Positions 5,894 through 15,997 of a DNA stretch of 64,000 bases are shown one piece after another (position 1 is the stretch's first letter; each line of letters starts with the position of its first letter). A program made the translations under genes and the position numbers. The DNA comes from Bombella favorum (GTDB taxonomy: Bacteria > Pseudomonadota > Alphaproteobacteria > Acetobacterales > Acetobacteraceae), in NCBI RefSeq assembly GCF_014048475.1, contig NZ_NWUS01000001.1, positions 248,001 through 312,000 on the forward strand, in the 5' to 3' direction. The notes beneath the pieces are model-generated. The model did no database searches and was not told the origin of the DNA. It saw only the letters and a program-made list of their open reading frames with translations.

Positions 5894-6769
5894 TTAAGGT
5901 AGCTGTCCAAAGCGAGGCTTTGGCAAGGGGAGGGATTCCTGCCCCAGGGGTTGTAGGAGATCCCGCTCAATTGTGCGGCTCATTGTCAGCATCGGCAGGG
6001 AATGAGGGCTGACCTTGAAAGGTTCCTGAAGATTTTGTCCGCTGCGGTCCAGCATTTGGAAGAGAACGCCAATGATGCTGGAGCCCAAAGGTGTGATCCA
6101 GCCTAGCGTTTGCACGGCGGACAAAGGCAGCAGAATGCAGAAGAGGTGGGTGATGACCTTCGGCAGGAGTGAATATTGTACAGGAAGAGGCGTATTGCGG
6201 ATGCGCTCCAGCCCACCCTGCGCATTGGCTAGGTCGGAGAGGATACGGTCCACAGTCCCGTGGACAGCCCCATCAATATGACGTTCTTCGACGAGCCTGC
6301 GGACCTCTTGCCCGATTCTGTAGAGCAGGGCATTGGCTGGGTTGCCGCAGGAAAAGACGAATCTATAAGTTTCCTCATCCAGCAGCACCTGAATGGCAGC
6401 ATCGGGCTCATTGCCGCTCAGTGAGGATTTTAGAATATACGGATAGGCTGCCATGGAGCGAACAAGGCTTGGCTGCCCACCAAGGAGCGATTCTACTTCC
6501 CGTGCGAAGGAGCGGCAGTTGTTGGTGATGGCCCCCCATAATGTGCGTCCCTCCCACCAGCGGGCATAGGCAGCATTATTACGGATTCCTAGAAAGATGG
6601 CGAGTGCCGACCCCATAAGGGAAAAGGGCAGGGCGGGCTGTTCCATCCATTCCTGATGGAAGATTTGGAACAGTATGACCACCACACAGTCCCACCCTGT
6701 CAGGACGATCAGAGGGGGAAGGATTTCCCGGAACAGTATGGAAAGGCCATAACGACGTTTGATGATCAA
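5894..6769 (-). CDS. Bestrophin family ion channel
   Basis: This is a 291-residue membrane protein of the bestrophin/UPF0187 (YneE) family. The family hallmarks are IFLGIRNNAAYARWWEGRTLWG in the first half (residues about 58-80) and RIRNTPLPVQYSLL after the cytosolic helices. Hydrophobic segments lie near residues 15-40, 48-62, 205-225 and 230-245, giving the expected four-helix layout. Bacterial bestrophins form pentameric, usually cation-permeable channels in the inner membrane, and the physiological role is generally unknown. It is divergent from frmA, with about 110 bases between, and stands alone after carD on the minus strand. Confidence 0.88.
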   Translation of the reverse strand: MIIKRRYGLSILFREILPPLIVLTGWDCVVVILFQIFHQEWMEQPALPFSLMGSALAIFLGIRNNAAYARWWEGRTLWGAITNNCRSFAREVESLLGGQPSLVRSMAAYPYILKSSLSGNEPDAAIQVLLDEETYRFVFSCGNPANALLYRIGQEVRRLVEERHIDGAVHGTVDRILSDLANAQGGLERIRNTPLPVQYSLLPKVITHLFCILLPLSAVQTLGWITPLGSSIIGVLFQMLDRSGQNLQEPFKVSPHSLPMLTMSRTIERDLLQPLGQESLPLPKPRFGQLP

Positions 6770-6880
6770 GGTGGCAAATTCCTCACATGGAGAGTGGTGA
6801 ATATGTCAGGGCTTGAAGCCCGCTCATTCTGTGGCACAATCCATACCTAAAGAAACAGCGATAAGTAGGATTATTAAGAG

Positions 6881-8002
6881 ATGGATGTTCGCGCTGCAAT
6901 CGCTCTTGAAGCCGGGAAACCGTTGGTCGTTGATACTGTCCAGCTAGAAGGCCCTCGTGAGGGCGAGGTTCTGGTGGAAATCATGGCTACGGGACTCTGC
7001 CACACGGACAAATATACACTTTCTGGTAATGATCCAGAAGGTCTTTTCCCCTCCATTCTGGGCCACGAAGGTGCTGGAATCGTTCGTGAAGTTGGTGCTG
7101 GGGTAAGGCACCTTAAGCCGGGCGATCACGTCATTCCCCTTTACACGCCGGAATGTCGTGAATGTCCGTCCTGTCTTTCCCGTAAGACAAATCTGTGCAC
7201 GTCCATTCGTGGTACACAGGGTAAGGGTCTGATGCCGGATGGGACGACGCGCTTTTCCTACAAGGGGAAACCAGTTCATCATTATATGGGCTGTTCCACA
7301 TTTGCTAATTTCACGGTCATGCCAGAAATTGCGCTGGCCAAAATCCGTCCCGATGCACCGTTTGACAAGGTCTGCTACATCGGGTGCGGTGTGACGACCG
7401 GTATCGGTGCTGTGCTGTTCACCGCCAAGGTAGAGGCTGGGTCCACTGTGGCTGTGTTCGGTCTCGGTGGTATCGGGCTGAATGTCATTCAGGGTGCGAA
7501 GATGGTCGGGGCCAACCGGATTATTGGTATCGACCTCAACCCAGAGCGTGAGGCTATTGCCCGTAAGTTTGGTATGACGGATTTCGTTAATCCTAAAGAT
7601 TTAGGTGAAAAAGGCGATCTAGTCGGCCATCTTATCGAGATGACGGGTGGTGGTGCTGATTATACCTTCGAGTGCGTTGGCAATGTCGGTCTGATGCGTC
7701 AGGCTCTGGAAAGTGCACATCGTGGCTGGGGTGTTTCTTGTGTGATCGGCGTTGCCGGTGCAGGGCAGGAAATCAGCACACGTCCCTTCCAGCTTGTGAC
7801 AGGCCGCCGCTGGATCGGTTCGGCCTTTGGCGGTGCCCGTGGGCGTACGGATGTTCCGAAGATCGTAGATTGGTACATGGAAGGGCGCATCAATATTGAT
7901 GACCTGATCACCCATGAGATGAAGCTGGATGACATCAACAAGGGCTTCGAGATGATGGAGCGTGGTGAGGGCATCCGTAACGTCGTGAATTACACGCTAT
8001 GA
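6881..8002 (+). CDS. frmA: S-(hydroxymethyl)glutathione dehydrogenase / class III alcohol dehydrogenase
   Basis: This zinc-dependent medium-chain dehydrogenase has 373 residues, the usual class III ADH length. The catalytic zinc ligands are Cys40 in ATGLCHTDKYTLSG, the His of ILGHEGAGIV and the Cys of YIGCGVTTG. The structural-zinc lobe is CRECPSCLSRKTNLC, and the NAD fold is VAVFGLGGIGLNVIQGA. It oxidises S-hydroxymethylglutathione, formed spontaneously from formaldehyde and glutathione, to S-formylglutathione. Its stop overlaps the start of the S-formylglutathione hydrolase gene by ATGA, so the two form a translationally coupled formaldehyde detoxification operon. Confidence 0.95.
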   Translation: MDVRAAIALEAGKPLVVDTVQLEGPREGEVLVEIMATGLCHTDKYTLSGNDPEGLFPSILGHEGAGIVREVGAGVRHLKPGDHVIPLYTPECRECPSCLSRKTNLCTSIRGTQGKGLMPDGTTRFSYKGKPVHHYMGCSTFANFTVMPEIALAKIRPDAPFDKVCYIGCGVTTGIGAVLFTAKVEAGSTVAVFGLGGIGLNVIQGAKMVGANRIIGIDLNPEREAIARKFGMTDFVNPKDLGEKGDLVGHLIEMTGGGADYTFECVGNVGLMRQALESAHRGWGVSCVIGVAGAGQEISTRPFQLVTGRRWIGSAFGGARGRTDVPKIVDWYMEGRINIDDLITHEMKLDDINKGFEMMERGEGIRNVVNYTL

Positions 8003-8850
8003 CGGATAACCCCTTTACACTGATCGAACGCCATGCCTGCTGTGGAGGGGAAATTCATTTCCTCTCCCATCAGTCGCAAGAACTTGGGCTGCCCACACGA
8101 GTCAATTTATTCCTGCCGCCGCAGGCTCTTGCTGGTGCTCGGGTGCCGGTTGTTCATGTGCTAGCAGGGCTGACTTGTACGCAGGATACGTTTCTCATTA
8201 AAAGCAATGCTGTTCGTTATGCGGCGGAATATGGTCTTGCTTTGGTAGCGCCAGATACTTCCCCACGGGGAGCTGACGTAGCTGGTGAGGATGAGGCGTA
8301 TGATCTGGGTACTGGCGCAGGCTATTATGTGGACGCTACGTCTGACCCATGGGCGGCGCATTACCGTATGGGTTCTTACGTGCGCAACGAACTGCCAACC
8401 TTGATAGAAGAACATTTTCCCATCCAGGTCGGACATCGTGGGGTCATGGGGCACTCGATGGGAGGAATGGGGGCTCTGTCCATTGCGCTGGGCGATGCTG
8501 AAGCATGGCGGACCGTTTCAGCTTTCGCACCGATTTCATCACCATCTCAGGTGGACTGGGGCCGCAAGGTGACAGCCAGCTATTTCGGGGGGTATGAGGC
8601 GGAATGGACTCAGTATGACCCTTGCCTGCTTCTGGATTCTGGCAGAATTCATCCGGGAACCCTGCTGGTAGATCAGGGGAGCGATGATGAGTTTCTGGAT
8701 CGCCTGCGGCCGGACCTTTTGGAGCAGGCTGCTAAGGCTGCTGGCCAGTCCCTGAAGCTACGCAGACATGAAGGGTATGACCATTCTTATTGGTTTGTTC
8801 AGAGCTTCATACAGGATCATCTGAAACATCATGCTGAAGGCCTTCTCTGA
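7999..8850 (+). CDS. fghA: S-formylglutathione hydrolase
   Basis: This is an alpha/beta-hydrolase esterase of 283 residues. The nucleophile is Ser153 in GHSMGGMGAL, the catalytic Asp is in LVDQGSDDEFL, and the His is in EGYDHSYWF. The N-terminal LAGLTCTQDTF segment is characteristic of esterase D/FGH enzymes. It hydrolyses S-formylglutathione to formate and glutathione, completing the step begun by the dehydrogenase it overlaps by four bases. A symmetrical terminator follows at about 8879-8904. Confidence 0.94.
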   Translation: MTDNPFTLIERHACCGGEIHFLSHQSQELGLPTRVNLFLPPQALAGARVPVVHVLAGLTCTQDTFLIKSNAVRYAAEYGLALVAPDTSPRGADVAGEDEAYDLGTGAGYYVDATSDPWAAHYRMGSYVRNELPTLIEEHFPIQVGHRGVMGHSMGGMGALSIALGDAEAWRTVSAFAPISSPSQVDWGRKVTASYFGGYEAEWTQYDPCLLLDSGRIHPGTLLVDQGSDDEFLDRLRPDLLEQAAKAAGQSLKLRRHEGYDHSYWFVQSFIQDHLKHHAEGLL

Positions 8851-8878
8851 CCATATTTTGAAGAATGATGGTGGAGCC

Positions 8879-8904
8879 CTTCCCACCCTTTATGCGGTGG
8901 GAAG
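8879..8904. terminator. Bidirectional terminator between fghA and hisI
   Basis: A perfect nine-base-pair stem, CTTCCCACC/GGTGGGAAG, with an eight-base loop lies between two converging genes. AGCTTTATT follows on the plus strand. Confidence 0.65.
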
Positions 8905-8933
8905 AGCTTTATTCTGTCAGGGAGTGTCAGTCT

Positions 8934-9356
8934 TCAGGAGGAAGGGGGTGTTCCGTACAGATTTGTGGGGTCAACGTCCGGATTAGTCAGATTTGTAAGG
9001 CCGGTGGGTGTTAGTGCCTGATAGAAGCAGCTGCGACGCCCTGTATGGCAGGCAACGCCTTTTTGCTGGACAGTCAGAAGCAGGCAGTCAGTGTCACAGT
9101 CTAGAGAGGCAGAAAGAAGATGCTGCTCCTGCCCGGAACTTTCTCCCTTACGCCAGAGCTTGCCCCGGCTGCGGGAGTAATAACAGACCCGTCCTGTAGA
9201 GAGCGTCTCGGATAAGGCTTCCCGGTTCATCCATGCAAGCATGAGTACTTCTCTTGCTTCATCTTGCGCAATGGCACTGATGAGCCCTTGTTCATTGAAT
9301 GAGATCTGATCTAACAGATTTGTCAATGTTGGTTCGGTAATAGGTTTCCACGACAT
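8934..9356 (-). CDS. hisI: Phosphoribosyl-AMP cyclohydrolase
   Basis: This monofunctional HisI of 140 residues catalyses the third step of histidine biosynthesis, ring opening of phosphoribosyl-AMP. Visible motifs are AWMNREAL, YYSRSRGKLWRKGESSG, the Mg/Zn site SLDCDTDCLLL and the zinc cysteines in CHTGRRSCFY. There is no HisE domain fused to it, as is usual in Alphaproteobacteria. Its ATG starts one base after the ygfZ stop (TGA-C-ATG), so translation is coupled to ygfZ. Other his genes are not in this window. Confidence 0.95.
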   Translation of the reverse strand: MSWKPITEPTLTNLLDQISFNEQGLISAIAQDEAREVLMLAWMNREALSETLSTGRVCYYSRSRGKLWRKGESSGQEQHLLSASLDCDTDCLLLTVQQKGVACHTGRRSCFYQALTPTGLTNLTNPDVDPTNLYGTPPSS

Positions 9357-9357
9357 G

Positions 9358-10218
9358 TCAGCTGTCCTGTTTCTCCGATGGTTCTGCGGCTTTGGGCAGC
9401 CAGTCAGGCCAGTTCAGTGTGATGGTCTGGCCGTTTAGCTGTAGTTCGGTAGCGTTCCATGCTCGACGGTGGAGCAGGGCTAGCCCACGTCGCCCTGCAT
9501 GTGACCTGATTTCACCGACATCCTGTCCATCCAGGGTTATGGTCCCACTATCGGGCAGAGCGTCTCCATTGGCAGTACTAATGGGCAGGATACGCCTTTT
9601 AATGAGCCCTCGGTAGTGGGTTCGGGCCGTGACTTCCTGACCTAAATAGCATCCTTTGGTCCATGAAATACCATGCAGGTGATCCATGTTGGCTTCTAGA
9701 GCCAGTGTCTGGCCTGGAGTGATGTCTTCGTCTGCCGGAATCCCGAGGTGCAGTCGTCGGTTAAGTAGGGATTCGGCTTCGGTGCAGCAGGTAGCTTCGT
9801 CATGTGGTAATGAGGCCGGGATGATGGCCCGCCATCCTAGCGCAGAATGCCGGGGGTCTGACGCATGGACCAAAGAATTTTCTGGTCGTGGGCTATCTAG
9901 TGGGCCTGTTAGAACGGTGGCTTCCGTTCGCTCCATCTGGACATCGGCTCTTAGTCTGAAACGACGTAGGTTTTTTAGGAAAGAGTCGGCCTGATCCTCT
10001 GGGAGGTCCAGGAGGAGGGCATTTTCAGTTTTCCAGAGAAAAAATAATGCCTGTATGCGCCCTTGCGCATTGAGCATAGCCGCCCAGATGGTATCCTGCT
10101 CGGAAAGGGTCTGTAAATCATTGGTTATGAGGCCGTTTAGAAAGCTGGTTTTGTCATTTCCTGTGAACGAAATGACAGCACGGCGTGAAAGATGGTTGCG
10201 CTTCATCAGTGTCCGCAT
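9358..10218 (-). CDS. ygfZ: YgfZ/GcvT-like folate-binding protein
   Basis: This protein of 286 residues carries the YgfZ signature KGCYLGQEVTAR (residues 188-199) within a GcvT-like folate-binding fold. YgfZ/Iba57 proteins use folate and assist assembly or repair of certain iron-sulfur enzymes, including the tRNA methylthiolase MiaB. An alternative start four codons downstream (MKRNHL) is possible, since neither has a good ribosome site. The gene runs into hisI with a one-base gap, and the opposite-strand sensor gene begins close by, so a shared divergent promoter region is likely around 10220-10290. Confidence 0.9.
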   Translation of the reverse strand: MRTLMKRNHLSRRAVISFTGNDKTSFLNGLITNDLQTLSEQDTIWAAMLNAQGRIQALFFLWKTENALLLDLPEDQADSFLKNLRRFRLRADVQMERTEATVLTGPLDSPRPENSLVHASDPRHSALGWRAIIPASLPHDEATCCTEAESLLNRRLHLGIPADEDITPGQTLALEANMDHLHGISWTKGCYLGQEVTARTHYRGLIKRRILPISTANGDALPDSGTITLDGQDVGEIRSHAGRRGLALLHRRAWNATELQLNGQTITLNWPDWLPKAAEPSEKQDS

Positions 10219-10293
10219 AATAGTGGTGGCTACAGAAGAGGGACCTTCACCCTATTCCAGCATGGTATACAAGGGATCATTTCGGGATACCGG

Positions 10294-12687
10294 ATGACTA
10301 AGGGGGATTCTAGAGCCTTGCCGACAGATGAGATCATTGATCCTGCCATTGATACCACAGGACGGCGCTGGCAGCTTTTTCAGTTCATAGGGCCAATTTT
10401 GGGCGTGATTTTGGTCATTATGACCATTGGTGTTGTCACGCTGTACACATATCGGACCATGCGGGAAGGGGCGATCACCCTCTCACGGAATCTTCTTAAA
10501 AGCCAGCAGCGTTATATTACCGAGGAAGTCAGCCATTATCTGTCTCCGGCAACGGGGATTTCTTTCATGGCCAGTGGGATGCTCACCAGCACGGACATGC
10601 AGGCAAATGCTAATGCCTTTATGACGTTGGGGCGTTCTGTCCTGCGGGGTATCCCTCATGTGGATAGTTTCTATCTGGCGGATGATCAGGGGCACTTTTG
10701 GATGTCTGCCCGGCGGGATGGGCAGTACGAGGAGACAACGCTTCAGATTGAGGATGGAGCCCCGTATTATCGGCACAGACTGACCGATAAGGATGGTCGT
10801 TTTATTTCCACAGACAGGCTATCGGCGGAAGGATACGACCCCCGGCTGCGCCCTTGGTATAAAGGGGCACTCCATTTTGAGAGTCGTGCGCCGGATCGTC
10901 GTCTGTTCTGGACAGACCCTTATCCTTATCTTTCGACTCATCAGTTTATTGTCACGGCCTCTCTGGCGTTCAGGACATTGGATGGGCGGCATGTTGTGTT
11001 CGCTATCAGCATTTCGTTGAATCGGCTGACACAGTTCGTCAACAGCCTCAAGGTGGGCAAAAGTGGACAGGCTGTGATCGTGGATCTCAGCGGCCATGTG
11101 ATTGCCGGTCATAACATGATGGATGTTGGTAAACCTGGTTTTGATGCAGAAAATGTACACTTGGACCCTAAAACGCAGCCCGTTTTTGTCAGGGCACTTA
11201 ACGTGTTTCGTGTCATGGGAGATGGGACGGGGATGGTGCAGGCCAGGGGGCAGAATTATGTCACTATTGCCTCAGCCATGCCTTTGGCTAAGCGGTCGTG
11301 GGTGTTGCTGCTCAATGCGCCTGAAAGTGACTTCGCTAGCTTTACACATGCTGTGCAGAAACAGGCGGTCTACTTCTCCATCGTTATTGTCGGGTTGGCG
11401 TTGGTTCTTGCTTTGGGGTTGATCTACCAGGGGAGGCGGGTTGAAAGGCTCCAGAAGGATTTGACGGTCCTTGATGACAAGAAGAAGGAGGATAATGCCG
11501 TTCTTCTGAAGATCACCAATGCCGAGGGACTACTGAATCCAGAGCAAGAGCAGCCCTATTTCTGTGAGGCTCTGGCCGAACGTGCAGTGGCCCGTCGTGC
11601 TAGTGTTTGGCGTTTGTTGGCGGATGGGGACAGGCTGCTATGTGAGGACATGTTCGATCGAGGCAGGGATGCTCATGGGTCCGGCATGGAGCTCACTAGG
11701 AATGGCCATCCCGGTGTGTTTGAGTGTCTTGAAAGCGGGCATGACGTTGACCTGCCGGATGCAGGGGAGGATCAGCGTTTCCAGAGCCTACAGCGTGTGG
11801 TCATGCGGATGATCGGGGCCAAGCACCTGTTCTTTATGCCGGTTGTGGAGGAGCATCGTCCAGTAGGGGCTATCATGCTGGAGGATCCCTACCAGCTGGG
11901 TGAGGCAGATCGGGTTATAGCGCTGCTTGCGTCTGTTTTGGCTGTCCGTTTCGGGCATGTGCAGGAGGAAGAAAAGAAGACAGAGCAGCTTCAAGGAGGC
12001 ACCGCTGCTACGGCGGCAGGCACCACGGGGCGATCAGCTAGATCCCCAATGCGAATTGTCGAGGGCTTTCTCATCCATCCGGAGGAGGAAGGTAACAGGG
12101 TTCCCCCTATGCCGGGTCTTTACCCGACAGTGCCGATTATGGTGCTGGAATTTTCTGAGGCTTATTCTTCCAACCGTGATACGGCACAGGCCATGTTGGA
12201 GTTGGTTGCAGAGCTTGGCGGGAAAATTGAGGGTATTGCTAGAGAACGTGGTCTGTTCTCGGCACAGGTAGCGGGAAACCGTTTTATTTTCTTAGGCAGT
12301 TGCTCTCAGAGTATTGATGCAGAGGGTGCTGTGCATCTAGCAGAGGCGGCTATTGGTATTCGTGAAGCTTGTCTGATGGTCATTGCCCAGATGAATACGC
12401 AGCTCATGTTCCGCATTGGTATTGATGTCGGGCCCGTCCTGGTTGCTTATTTTGGGGAGAGGCGTGATATCTTCAATTTGTGGGGCGAAGGGCTCACAAT
12501 GGCCGAGGCTCTGGCTCACAATGCTCCTGATGGTGGGCAGATTCAGGTTTCGGAACGAGCCTATCAGACGTTGCAGGGTGTTTTCCTGTTCCGTTTGAGA
12601 GGGGAGTTCTTCCTGCCCAATAATGGTATCTCCAATAGCTACATCTTGGCAGGCCGGAGTGAAAGCACGGCGGCAGAGAGATCATGA
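10294..12687 (+). CDS. Membrane sensor: dCache - GAF - degenerate class III cyclase domain
   Basis: From the ATG at 10294 the protein has 797 residues; an in-frame ATG at 10192 would overlap ygfZ. A transmembrane helix (about 31-52) is followed by a large periplasmic double-Cache domain with the typical DPRLRPWY motif (182-189). A second helix lies at about 358-379, then a coiled linker, a GAF-like domain (about 405-580) and a C-terminal class III nucleotidyl cyclase fold (about 610-780). In the cyclase fold the two metal-binding Asp positions look replaced: FSEAY where F-x-D is expected, and AGNRF where GD is expected. It is therefore probably not an active cyclase. It overlaps the MlaE gene by four bases, so it heads the lipid-transport operon. 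Confidence 0.78.
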   Translation: MTKGDSRALPTDEIIDPAIDTTGRRWQLFQFIGPILGVILVIMTIGVVTLYTYRTMREGAITLSRNLLKSQQRYITEEVSHYLSPATGISFMASGMLTSTDMQANANAFMTLGRSVLRGIPHVDSFYLADDQGHFWMSARRDGQYEETTLQIEDGAPYYRHRLTDKDGRFISTDRLSAEGYDPRLRPWYKGALHFESRAPDRRLFWTDPYPYLSTHQFIVTASLAFRTLDGRHVVFAISISLNRLTQFVNSLKVGKSGQAVIVDLSGHVIAGHNMMDVGKPGFDAENVHLDPKTQPVFVRALNVFRVMGDGTGMVQARGQNYVTIASAMPLAKRSWVLLLNAPESDFASFTHAVQKQAVYFSIVIVGLALVLALGLIYQGRRVERLQKDLTVLDDKKKEDNAVLLKITNAEGLLNPEQEQPYFCEALAERAVARRASVWRLLADGDRLLCEDMFDRGRDAHGSGMELTRNGHPGVFECLESGHDVDLPDAGEDQRFQSLQRVVMRMIGAKHLFFMPVVEEHRPVGAIMLEDPYQLGEADRVIALLASVLAVRFGHVQEEEKKTEQLQGGTAATAAGTTGRSARSPMRIVEGFLIHPEEEGNRVPPMPGLYPTVPIMVLEFSEAYSSNRDTAQAMLELVAELGGKIEGIARERGLFSAQVAGNRFIFLGSCSQSIDAEGAVHLAEAAIGIREACLMVIAQMNTQLMFRIGIDVGPVLVAYFGERRDIFNLWGEGLTMAEALAHNAPDGGQIQVSERAYQTLQGVFLFRLRGEFFLPNNGISNSYILAGRSESTAAERS

Positions 12688-13502
12688 ATTTCTCAGAACG
12701 CTTTGCTGTCATCAATAGTGGTCTGGCTATGCTGGGCCGCTTTGCTCGTTCTCAGCCACGCTTCTTTCTCGTTATGATTGGGGCGGCGTGGGGTGTTGTA
12801 TATGAAACGCTTCGTCCTAGCTCATGGCGAAGGACGGTCATCATCGAGTTCCGGCGTAATTTGCGGCAGTTGGTGGGTAGTGGGTTTTTCAGCGTGGTGG
12901 TGGTAGCTGTCATCACGGGGTTGGGGCTGGTCTCACAGGCTGTGTACTGGCTGGGTTTTGCAGGTATGGCTCAGATGACAGGGAGCCTTCTTTCCAGTGT
13001 TCTGCTGCGGGAAATCGCCCCCATTCTGGTAGGTGTTATTCTGCTGGGACGTTCTGGCATGTTGATGCTGACGGAAATGGGTACCCTGACAACTAGTGGG
13101 AGGCTCAATACCCTGAATGGTATGGGGATTGATCCCTTTCTGGTTTTTGTTGTGCCGCGAACCATCGCTACAACTGTTAGCGGGATTACATTGGGAACCA
13201 TTTTCAGCGTCATTGCCTTGGGTATGGGATATGTGGCCTGCTGGATGAAAGGGATTGTCACATCCTCAATCTGGTCGTTCATCTTTGATGTGATCAACAG
13301 TATGGAGCCGGGTGATTATGTCGGTATTCCTCTGAAATTCCTCCTTAGTGGGGCAAGTGTTGGTTTGTGCTGCTGTTTGTCTGGCATGGATGTGACGGCA
13401 GAGGATAATTTGACCACGTTCATGCCACGTGGCTTCTCTCGTGGCATTATGTCCATTCTGGTCATCAATGTGCTGATCGATATCATTCTGGGGAGCCTCT
13501 GA
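12684..13502 (+). CDS. MlaE-family ABC permease
   Basis: This is a 272-residue MlaE/YrbE permease with five to six hydrophobic segments and the conserved loop TEMGTLTTSGRLNTLNGMGI followed by DPFLVFVVPRTIA, plus the preceding LREIAPILVGVILLGRSG segment. MlaE pairs with an MCE protein and an ATPase to move phospholipids between the inner membrane and the periplasm. The start overlaps the sensor stop by ATGA, and the stop overlaps the next gene by TGATG. The residues usually seen as the AAE stretch of the loop are changed (MLMLTEMG), so it is a divergent member. Confidence 0.88.
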   Translation: MNFSERFAVINSGLAMLGRFARSQPRFFLVMIGAAWGVVYETLRPSSWRRTVIIEFRRNLRQLVGSGFFSVVVVAVITGLGLVSQAVYWLGFAGMAQMTGSLLSSVLLREIAPILVGVILLGRSGMLMLTEMGTLTTSGRLNTLNGMGIDPFLVFVVPRTIATTVSGITLGTIFSVIALGMGYVACWMKGIVTSSIWSFIFDVINSMEPGDYVGIPLKFLLSGASVGLCCCLSGMDVTAEDNLTTFMPRGFSRGIMSILVINVLIDIILGSL

Positions 13503-14236
13503 TGGTAGAGAATGCGACTCTTTCAGAGGGAGATTACGGCTTTGTCCTGAAGCTGGATGATGCCGTACCGTTTTCCGATTCCACAGGGCTGCCTTCGGTA
13601 AAGTACAATTTATCTCTTGAGCCCGGTGAATGTGTGTTTGTGGAGTGCCGTGATAGTTTCCGGGCTGCCCAGTTTACGGATTTCTGTGTCGGTCTTTTAC
13701 CAGTCAAGCCGGACCCTAGTACGGGTAAAGGACAGGGTACGGTCAGCTGCATGGGCTTGAATTGGGCAGAGTTGGATGAAAAACGGGCGCAGGCCTTACG
13801 GGGACGGATTGGCCGCATAACGGATGATAGTGGCTGGATCGACCTCTATGAGATGCATATGAACATCCTGTGGCCTAGCTTGCATCATAGTCGCACGTCC
13901 TACGATAAACTTGTGTTGGAAGCCGTTCATCTGGCCGAATCATTCGGTCTGCCTGGTCTGCCCACTCAGCTACCGGAAAAACTGTCCCTGTTGGACAGAA
14001 AGCGTTCAGAGTATGTGAGGACGTTCATGAACAGGCCTTCTTTGCTTCTATTGGAAAATCCTATCAATCTTGGTGGGCCGATAGAGCTGTATAATGCCTT
14101 TTTGACAGAACTGACAGCGGCACGGGAGCGGGGCTGTGCCGTCGTATGGATCGGTTCGGAACGTTCCGCTTGGGCTGGTTATGCCAGACCAGGGATGCAA
14201 CGTTTTCGCCTCGGTAGTAATGGTCTCGTAAAGTGA
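13502..14236 (+). CDS. Degenerate MlaF-like ABC ATPase (pseudo-ATPase)
   Basis: This 244-residue protein sits exactly where the MlaF ATPase belongs, between MlaE and MlaD. Its outline follows an ABC domain, with LSLEPGECVFVE at residues 37-48, then GRIGRITDDSGWIDLYEMHM. The motifs themselves are gone. The Walker A slot (48-57) reads ECRDSFRAAQ instead of GxxGxGKST, the signature slot (161-166) reads LSLLDR instead of LSGGQ, and the Walker B slot (181-187) reads LLLLENP instead of LLLLDEP. The frame is intact and the gene is translationally coupled at both sides, so it is probably a functional protein that cannot hydrolyse ATP in the normal way. Homology to MlaF rests on position and outline, so treat it as likely rather than certain. 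Confidence 0.62.
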   Translation: MVENATLSEGDYGFVLKLDDAVPFSDSTGLPSVKYNLSLEPGECVFVECRDSFRAAQFTDFCVGLLPVKPDPSTGKGQGTVSCMGLNWAELDEKRAQALRGRIGRITDDSGWIDLYEMHMNILWPSLHHSRTSYDKLVLEAVHLAESFGLPGLPTQLPEKLSLLDRKRSEYVRTFMNRPSLLLLENPINLGGPIELYNAFLTELTAARERGCAVVWIGSERSAWAGYARPGMQRFRLGSNGLVK

Positions 14237-14243
14237 GAGATAT

Positions 14244-15215
14244 ATGATGCGTCCTTTACGTTTACGTCGGCGTTCCGGTCTTGCGGCTCCTTTATTCAGG
14301 AGCTCTTTCGTAGATGAGTGGGTGGGGCTGCTTGTTTTGCTGGCTCTTGTCATTCTCACGGCCGTGTTGGTGGAGGCTGGGTTTCTCAAGCAATGGCTGA
14401 CACCGGCAGGACGTCTTCATTTTGTTTTACCGGAAAGCGGTGTGGCTGGTCTGGCCGTCAATAATGATATTGAGGTCATGGGGGTTCGTGTCGGGGAGAT
14501 CCGTCGGCTGGACCTTAATGAATCAGGCCGTATGTATGCGGAAGGGACTATAGAACCTCATTTTGAACGCTATATTCGTAGTGACAGCATAGCGACTATC
14601 AAGCGTCGTCTTGTCGTTGCAGGTGCGGGGTATATTGAAATTACCCGAGGGCAGGGTGAGCCGCTCAACTGGGATTATGCCGTGTTGAATACCAGAGTAG
14701 AGCCTAACCCGGCGGATATGATTGTTCAGACATTGCTAGACCTGCGCGCTAGACTTCTCCCAGCCATGGACAATGTGGAAGAAATTACAAAGCAGGCCAA
14801 AGACATCATGGTGGACCTGCATGCGGGTAAGGGGACAGCCGGCGCCTTGTTGACGAAGGAAGAGACAGCTCAGCGTATTAATACGATTCTGGCATCGCTG
14901 AACAAGGCGATTGAGAGCGTGCAGCCACTGGAGCGTCAGTTGCAGGTTACCTTGAATGAGGCCAATGGCGTGATGCAAAATGTGCATCATCTGACCAATG
15001 GACTGAAAGATTCTGGGCCGGAGGTAAAACGTAGCATCCGTAATGTGGCCGATGCTACCGAGCAGCTACCTGCTGTCCTAGCGGAAGCTGAAGCTACTGC
15101 GGACAGTTTACGTAAACTGAGTGATCAGTTACGAGGTCTGTGGTTGCTGGGCGGTAGTGGAGGAAAGAAACACCGGCCTAATCGTAGGCTCTCGGCCCAT
15201 GAGGTGCGACCATGA
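14244..15215 (+). CDS. MlaD/MCE family lipid-transport protein
   Basis: This 323-residue MCE-domain protein has one N-terminal membrane anchor (about residues 25-45, WVGLLVLLALVILTAVLV). An MCE domain follows (about 55-130) with LPESGVAGLAVNNDIEVMGV and a GAGYIEITRG strand. A long helical, coiled-coil-prone tail (about 145-300) contains a KGTAGALLTKEE turn. MlaD-like proteins form hexameric rings in the periplasm that pass phospholipids between membranes. The long helical tail resembles needle or tunnel-forming MCE proteins rather than short E. coli MlaD. The stop overlaps the following lipoprotein gene. Confidence 0.88.
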   Translation: MMRPLRLRRRSGLAAPLFRSSFVDEWVGLLVLLALVILTAVLVEAGFLKQWLTPAGRLHFVLPESGVAGLAVNNDIEVMGVRVGEIRRLDLNESGRMYAEGTIEPHFERYIRSDSIATIKRRLVVAGAGYIEITRGQGEPLNWDYAVLNTRVEPNPADMIVQTLLDLRARLLPAMDNVEEITKQAKDIMVDLHAGKGTAGALLTKEETAQRINTILASLNKAIESVQPLERQLQVTLNEANGVMQNVHHLTNGLKDSGPEVKRSIRNVADATEQLPAVLAEAEATADSLRKLSDQLRGLWLLGGSGGKKHRPNRRLSAHEVRP

Positions 15216-15997
15216 GGTTCCATCATATCATCGTGTCTCTATCGCTGTTTGTAGGGTCTCTTGGGGGATGTTCCAGTGGTCCTGGTGAGTGGGAGGATCA
15301 GCGCTACGCCGTCAGGATGGAAGCTGCGGATAGTGTGTTCAACCTTGGTTATGTCCAGCAGGCTCAGCAGCATTATGCTGAAGCCTTGGATAGGGCGTTT
15401 CTAGTTGATGATTCCCAGGGAATTCATGATGCTGGCTTCAACCTGGCTACCAGTGACCTCCGCCTGAAGGAGTATAAGGCCAGTTTGGAAACGCTTCGAA
15501 GGGTATCGGACGCCTTGACGGTAAGAGGGTGGATCGAAGCGCAGCAGGCTGATTTACACCTTGTGCGTGCTTCCGTTTTCTATGATCGGGGCCAGTGGCA
15601 GGACGCTGCAGCTGAGGCACGCCTGGCTAGAAATAGTTTGGATGAGAGGACACGTTTTAGAGCCTATGCGCTGGGCGGTCTTGTCGCTGCTGCAATGTCT
15701 GATCGGGTTGGTCTGGAAGAGACTATTACTTATCTTACCTCCAGTAGAGATGAGAAAGATCAGACTGATCTCAAAGAGCTTCTTACCTGGCGTATGATTA
15801 TGAACCAAAACTGGCAGTCGGCTGCTGATAGTGCCGAATCACTAGCTAAGGCTCGCAGGGAAGAAACGGATTACGAGGCTATGCGTCGAGCATTGCGTCT
15901 AGAAGTTAGAGCTTTGCGTGGTATGGGACGGGAGCAGGCCGCTGAGAGTGTTATGATGCGGCTTAGGGATAGTAATCGGGAGCAGGCTAAGCAGTAA
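15212..15997 (+). CDS. TPR-like lipoprotein of the MCE operon
   Basis: This 261-residue protein has a lipoprotein signal peptide ending in the lipobox SLGGC, so Cys20 is the likely lipidated residue. The remainder is helical with tetratricopeptide-like pairs, for example FNLGYVQQAQQHYAEALDRA and ASVFYDRGQWQDAAAEARLA. No enzyme motif is seen. It overlaps the MCE gene by ATGA and is last in the operon, followed by a strong hairpin. By analogy with other MCE operons, where a lipoprotein contacts the outer membrane, it may be the envelope partner of the transporter; that is inference. Confidence 0.75.
   Translation: MRFHHIIVSLSLFVGSLGGCSSGPGEWEDQRYAVRMEAADSVFNLGYVQQAQQHYAEALDRAFLVDDSQGIHDAGFNLATSDLRLKEYKASLETLRRVSDALTVRGWIEAQQADLHLVRASVFYDRGQWQDAAAEARLARNSLDERTRFRAYALGGLVAAAMSDRVGLEETITYLTSSRDEKDQTDLKELLTWRMIMNQNWQSAADSAESLAKARREETDYEAMRRALRLEVRALRGMGREQAAESVMMRLRDSNREQAKQ

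Follow-up and report, generated by a model that had tools for sequence, protein, structure and literature searches.

In the Mpc system of Brucella abortus (MpcEFDA), as given in the excerpts of PMC12436622, a permease and an ABC-type protein are accompanied by a long MCE protein of 331 aa and, in last place, a lipoprotein; the permease MpcE carries a STAS domain, the ABC transporter is described as well conserved, and MpcF is homologous to MlaF. The same excerpts describe PqiABC and LetAB as MCE systems in which the inner-membrane protein has no ATPase domain. In the mycobacterial systems Mce1 and Mce4, MlaE-like (YrbE) permeases share one active ATPase, MceG, probably by way of the EExDA motif (excerpts of PMC9947336).

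The locus analyzed here lies in the window (the whole stretch of 64,000 nucleotides that was analyzed), which belongs to a 1.97 Mb genome (G000) of Bombella favorum. It shares with Mpc the permease, the protein in the ABC position, the long MCE protein (323 aa) and the final lipoprotein, and with MlaFEDB of E. coli the combination of an MlaE-family permease, an MCE protein and an ABC-fold partner. It departs from Mpc in three respects: the ATPase lacks its motifs, the permease has no STAS match, and a predicted pseudo-cyclase receptor heads the operon. As compared to MlaFEDB, there is no gene in place of MlaB or MlaC, and E. coli MlaF has all seven key ATPase residues whereas the window protein and its orthologues have none to two. 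Unlike PqiABC and LetAB (PqiA and LetA are presumably not MlaE permeases), the module keeps an ABC-fold partner, one without catalytic residues; and in contrast to the permeases served by MceG, its permease has lost the acidic start of EExDA. The module is real and conserved, and our best reading is that it is a variant of the Mla/Mpc kind of MCE/MlaE transporter. A literature search (most subscription papers lay outside it) did not turn up any account of a pseudo-ATPase in an MCE system, nor of such a pseudo-cyclase partner, which agrees, for the literature covered, with the statement of an earlier sequence-only reading that no MCE system with such a pseudo-ATPase had been described.

Layout and distribution of the five-gene module

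The five genes follow one another on the + strand at 10192-15997: a dCache-GAF-class III cyclase-like membrane receptor (831 aa, 10192-12687), an MlaE-family permease (272 aa, 12684-13502), a pseudo-ABC ATPase (244 aa, 13502-14236), an MlaD-type MCE protein with one MCE domain (323 aa, 14244-15215), and a TPR-like lipoprotein with the lipobox LGGC (261 aa, 15212-15997). Three of the four junctions are overlaps, of 4, 1 and 4 bases (the ATG of the pseudo-ATPase gene overlaps the TGA stop of the permease gene by one base), and the pseudo-ATPase and MCE genes are separated by a gap of 7 bases; this spacing fits a single operon.

The module is fixed and conserved in acetic acid bacteria. Out of 127 loci examined (not all independent, as some species occur twice and 14 of 47 proteins are identical to another in the set), 126 hold the cyclase, permease, pseudo-ATPase and MCE genes, with order and strand identical in all 126, two of them outside Acetobacteraceae. 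The lipoprotein gene is also present in 123 of these 126; the three loci without it (L097, L109 and L201) are at contig ends. The lone exception is a 4,554-base contig of Komagataeibacter europaeus (L179), which has the pseudo-ATPase, MCE and lipoprotein genes and neither the cyclase nor the permease gene. The sequence upstream of its pseudo-ATPase gene (1-1280) bears no relation to that of L177 and L185, two further Komagataeibacter loci used for comparison; it could be an insertion, a rearrangement or a misassembly.

Orthologues of the pseudo-ATPase were found in 46 of the 150 genomes of a family sample (own genome included; E-value 2e-21 or better) and in 153 of the 299 genomes of an order sample (at 1e-25), all 153 labelled as the same family. 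In a class sample of 385 genomes, with the best 6-7 candidates scored in each, six stand out at E-values of 4.2e-69 or better, the next ABC protein being at 7e-24; four of them belong to the family, and G185 and G500 lie outside it. The permease was found in these same six genomes. A search for an intermediate, i.e. a module with an intact ATPase, covered the best 6-8 candidates per genome and gave none: in the 385 class genomes, once the six module members are passed, permeases score 1e-28 or worse and lie in open frames of 379-699 aa, and in a phylum sample of 349 genomes the five matches at 1e-25 were all among those already found. Among the best 80 of 129 relatives, the hosts include Bombella, Gluconobacter, Asaia, Swaminathania, Tanticharoenia, Acidomonas, Acetobacter, Komagataeibacter, Novacetimonas, Gluconacetobacter, Lichenicoccus and an uncultured Commensalibacter, and a contig of B. 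intestini encodes a protein 100% identical to the window pseudo-ATPase. In some large-genome genera (e.g. g44, g95 and g102) the gene is present in some species and not in others, so loss or transfer has happened.

Fold, catalytic residues and selection of the pseudo-ATPase

Taken alone, the 244-aa protein scores low against ABC models: it reaches 15.3 bits against the Pfam ABC_tran model, below the cut-off of 25, has weak matches to FtsE-type models, and reaches 12.4 bits against the MlaF equivalog PRK11831 of NCBIfam, for which the threshold is 441. The single sequence falling under the Pfam cut-off would be expected if it were no ABC protein at all and merely resembled one by chance in the MlaF position. 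A profile of 45 orthologues (the shortened L110 left out) searched against PDB, however, matched MacB best (5lj9, E-value 1.7e-18, positions 7-213 of 232), with further matches to LolD, FtsE and MlaF (6xbd, 1.2e-13), and the gene is flanked by those for an MlaE permease and an MCE protein. We give next to no credence to the chance explanation, which the profile match rules out. The product of 13502-14236 is thus predicted to have the fold of an ABC nucleotide-binding domain (NBD), and it probably descends from an MlaF-type ATPase. Besides the 45-orthologue alignment, a second one left out L070, L090 and L110, and a third took 21 of the 45 proteins.

Where MlaF has GPSGIGKT, LSGGM, IMFDEP and His203, the window protein reads CRDSFRAA, LSLLD, LLLENP and Ser. 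We counted seven key residues in 113 distinct pseudo-ATPases (from 128, the window protein and the shortened L110 included), using E. coli MlaF and the two intact paralogues of the same genome as controls. All seven residues are present in each control, whereas 29 of the 113 sequences keep none, 77 keep one and 7 keep two, the bulk of what survives being a Ser/Thr at the last Walker A position (65 sequences). Walker A Lys is found in none of the 113, with Ala in its place in 89. The S-G-G of the signature is likewise found in none (the first Gly alone is kept in 12 and the second Gly in 3), and the Gln/Met position of the signature has become Asp in 112, the remaining one having a gap. No sequence has the Walker B Asp-Glu pair: Asp is replaced by Glu in 109 (Asp itself in 1), and the position of the catalytic Glu holds Asp in 64, Asn in 25 and Glu in 9. 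The H-loop His is kept in a single sequence (L109). These columns and the profile bear out the sequence-only reading, which had described an ABC outline without Walker A, LSGGQ or Walker B DE.

Being common to 113 distinct orthologues, the motif loss is neither chance nor strain-specific. A recent loss confined to Bombella is rejected, since the same loss is seen in distant Acetobacteraceae and in two genomes outside the family. Several of the replacing residues show high conservation, as re-purposing would explain more readily than drift, and two further blocks, ALRGRIGR and FGLPGLP, are near-invariant. Such conservation would also be expected of a non-standard nucleotide enzyme or sensor, in which new residues (e.g. 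those of the CRD..RA loop and the signature Asp) would let the pseudo-ATPase, the pseudo-cyclase or both still bind ATP, GTP or a different ligand. We regard this as improbable: Walker A has lost its Lys, Walker B its Asp-Glu pair and the signature its pair of Gly, and the Asp now found next to that pair should repel phosphate.

The pseudo-ATPase is under purifying selection. Against the two least diverged Bombella-type sequences (L148 and L149), the window gene has dN/dS of 0.034 (dS 0.57) and 0.047 (dS 1.06), and values of 0.034-0.078 were obtained in the seven of eight Bombella-type pairs for which dS could be computed, more diverged pairs being near or at saturation. For the same two pairs, dN/dS is 0.043 and 0.040 for the cyclase, 0.008 and 0.034 for the permease, 0.011 and 0.033 for the MCE gene, and 0.073 and 0.112 for the lipoprotein. 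The median length of the pseudo-ATPase is 233 aa, with one clearly truncated protein among 127.

In one genome of the family (G126, locus L110, about 6600-10000) the module looks decayed, all five of its genes being shortened, while another species of that genus (G046, L104) retains long frames for three of them (cyclase, pseudo-ATPase and MCE protein); joint shortening is expected of genes that work together, unless it reflects an assembly fault. Single shortened frames are seen in other loci, e.g. the permease in L090 and L195. It could accordingly be supposed that the window gene is also being lost and is still open since its inactivation is recent. We consider this very improbable, and decay is rejected for the window gene given the conserved motif loss, the low dN/dS with one clear truncation among 127, and the wide occurrence across many genera (153 of the 299 order-sample genomes). 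The earlier argument that the gene is not decaying thus holds up, and neither of the two refuting outcomes named with it was obtained: the fold was found by profile (MacB, 1.7e-18) and the motifs are missing in 113 distinct sequences rather than in one recently decayed strain.

The receptor, the transport proteins and other MCE systems in the same genome

The 831-aa receptor at 10192-12687 matches dCache_1 (1.2e-16), GAF (3.6e-07) and Guanylate_cyc (9.1e-16) in Pfam, the class III cyclase domain (PF00211) at 58.4 bits, above the cut-off of 21.9. Its alignment with an adenylate cyclase (4p2m, 9.8e-13) shows GD replaced by GN and NvaSR by TmaEA, and the metal-Asp positions in the window protein are E653 and N696. 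Across 113 distinct cyclases (four gaps per column), the first metal Asp is found in none, the second in one and both in none, and the transition-state Asn and Arg are kept in 7 and 4, respectively; we take the scored columns to be those that serve catalysis in class III enzymes (the columns of the second metal Asp, the Asn and the Arg were checked on the 4p2m alignment, which does not reach the first metal Asp). By these columns the receptor is predicted to be a conserved pseudo-cyclase, degenerate in parallel with the pseudo-ATPase. Neither the cyclase degeneracy nor the conservation of the module had been part of the sequence-only reading.

The permease (12684-13502) matches the MlaE family (PF02405) at 115.2 bits (4.1e-33; cut-off 22.5), which is its sole Pfam match above cut-off; no STAS domain was found in its 272 aa. 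The EExDA motif is a strong candidate for the ATPase-binding site (excerpts of PMC9947336), and MlaE makes its contact with MlaF through a coupling helix on the cytoplasmic side, located between TM2 and TM3 (excerpts of PMC7790496). E. coli MlaE reads EQLSS here, and the motif starts with Glu in E. coli MlaE and one paralogue and with Asp in the other. Among 112 distinct module permeases, the first acidic residue is replaced by Gly in 107 and no sequence has an acidic residue there; at the second position 45 have Glu and 46 have Gln, the residue of E. coli, and at the fourth position 100 have Arg or Lys, as against Ser in E. coli MlaE. As the second position is often kept as Glu or Gln, the docking loop is altered rather than erased. 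With a pseudo-ATPase, a degenerate cyclase and an altered docking motif in the permease, all three would-be partners at the cytoplasmic face are changed.

The MCE protein (14244-15215) matches PF02470 at residues 67-136 (42.2 bits, 9.9e-11; cut-off 25.1), and its long C-terminal part is probably helical, as weak coiled-coil matches suggest. The lipoprotein (15212-15997) has sub-threshold matches of the TPR type and none to the PqiC family (single-sequence Pfam and NCBIfam searches), and 102 of 111 distinct lipoproteins show a lipobox-like pattern within their first 45 aa. Its gene evolves faster than the other four of the module (dN/dS 0.07-0.21 in the seven of eight pairs for which it could be computed), perhaps because the protein touches a variable partner at the outer membrane.

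The same genome contains three MlaE permeases, two of which adjoin intact MlaF-type ATPases. The permease at C3:121 kb forms a Mla-type pair with its ATPase. At C3:255 kb lies a 396-aa permease whose long N-terminal part is presumably a STAS domain, by analogy with MpcE. Its neighbours are an intact ATPase, an MCE protein of 318 aa and a protein of 196 aa that begins with a lipobox-like pattern; this operon (L113, G000:C3:247000-264000) matches the Brucella Mpc layout. In addition, there is a 561-aa frame with three MCE matches, which looks like PqiB. A further single-domain MCE protein, in a 186-aa frame (L229, G000:C1:184996-185220), is on a contig other than that of the two intact pairs. 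With two permease/intact-ATPase pairs and a three-MCE protein kept, the window module is an extra system. Its gene order is that of the C3:255 kb operon, plus the receptor in front and without a STAS match. When this genome is searched with the module's profiles, the C3:121 kb pair comes out ahead of the C3:255 kb pair for both the permease and the pseudo-ATPase, the best ABC match is a third ABC protein (L114), and for the MCE profile the Mpc-like MCE protein is slightly best. The nearest permeases outside the module lie in long open frames (379-699 aa). The source of the module may have been an Mla-like or an Mpc-like operon.

The sequence-only reading had left two options, a transporter that borrows an ATPase from elsewhere or one that works without ATP hydrolysis, and had pointed to a second intact mlaF as a thing to look for. 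Two intact MlaF-type ATPases are indeed available, each found beside its own MlaE permease, and the module permease might pair with one of them, either on its own, as a homodimer in place of the pseudo-ATPase, or joined in a heterodimer to the pseudo-ATPase, which would serve as adaptor or regulator. Such sharing is known from MceG, which serves Mce1 and Mce4 (excerpts of PMC9947336), and 91 of the 112 permeases still have Glu or Gln at the second EExDA position. We nevertheless judge borrowing unlikely, as each intact ATPase adjoins a permease of its own, the acidic residue (Glu or Asp) that starts the docking motif in E. coli MlaE and both paralogues is missing from the module permease, and a pseudo-ATPase without Walker A and signature would leave both composite sites of a mixed dimer broken. 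It is the ATP-free option that is left the better placed of the two.

Proposed mode of action

An ABC dimer has two composite sites, each combining Walker A and Walker B of one subunit with the signature of its partner. With Walker A, Walker B and signature all missing, the pseudo-ATPase can form no normal site in a homodimer or in a mixed dimer. We lean towards the view that it is a conserved non-hydrolysing member of a receptor-gated five-gene MCE lipid-transport module, in which it would act as a plate gated by a signal from the pseudo-cyclase. The NBD pair would then be a structural or gating plate under the MlaE-type permease and not a motor; the simplest account is that a non-hydrolysing pair keeps the permease assembled and gated. 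The pseudo-cyclase would be a periplasmic sensor that passes a conformational signal to the plate instead of producing cAMP or cGMP, and as a sensor it may occupy a regulatory place. The plate would in turn open or close the bridge made of permease, MCE protein and lipoprotein, and lipid would move down its gradient or be driven by another force, such as a proton gradient. Pqi and Let, as MCE systems without an ATPase, offer a precedent for ATP-free transport (excerpts of PMC12436622). We infer that the five proteins form one complex that moves lipid without ATP. More tentatively, and with somewhat less than an even chance in our estimate, an ABC-type lipid machine may here have been turned into a ligand-gated, ATP-independent bridge, with the pseudo-cyclase and the pseudo-ABC dimer serving as a mechanical relay onto the MlaE-MCE channel.

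ABC transporters are defined by ATP hydrolysis. If the proposed function is true, the widely conserved module, whose sole cognate NBD is not equipped for hydrolysis, would be a natural uncoupled ABC system, showing a role of the NBD pair beyond burning ATP. As one small genome has two permease/ATPase pairs, a three-MCE protein and the module, it would also bear on which force drives lipid through MCE bridges, and in which direction. The hosts belong to a bacterial group of which many members are named and in culture, e.g. Gluconobacter and Komagataeibacter. The parallel loss in the cyclase would add a testable case of two pseudo-enzymes evolving together.
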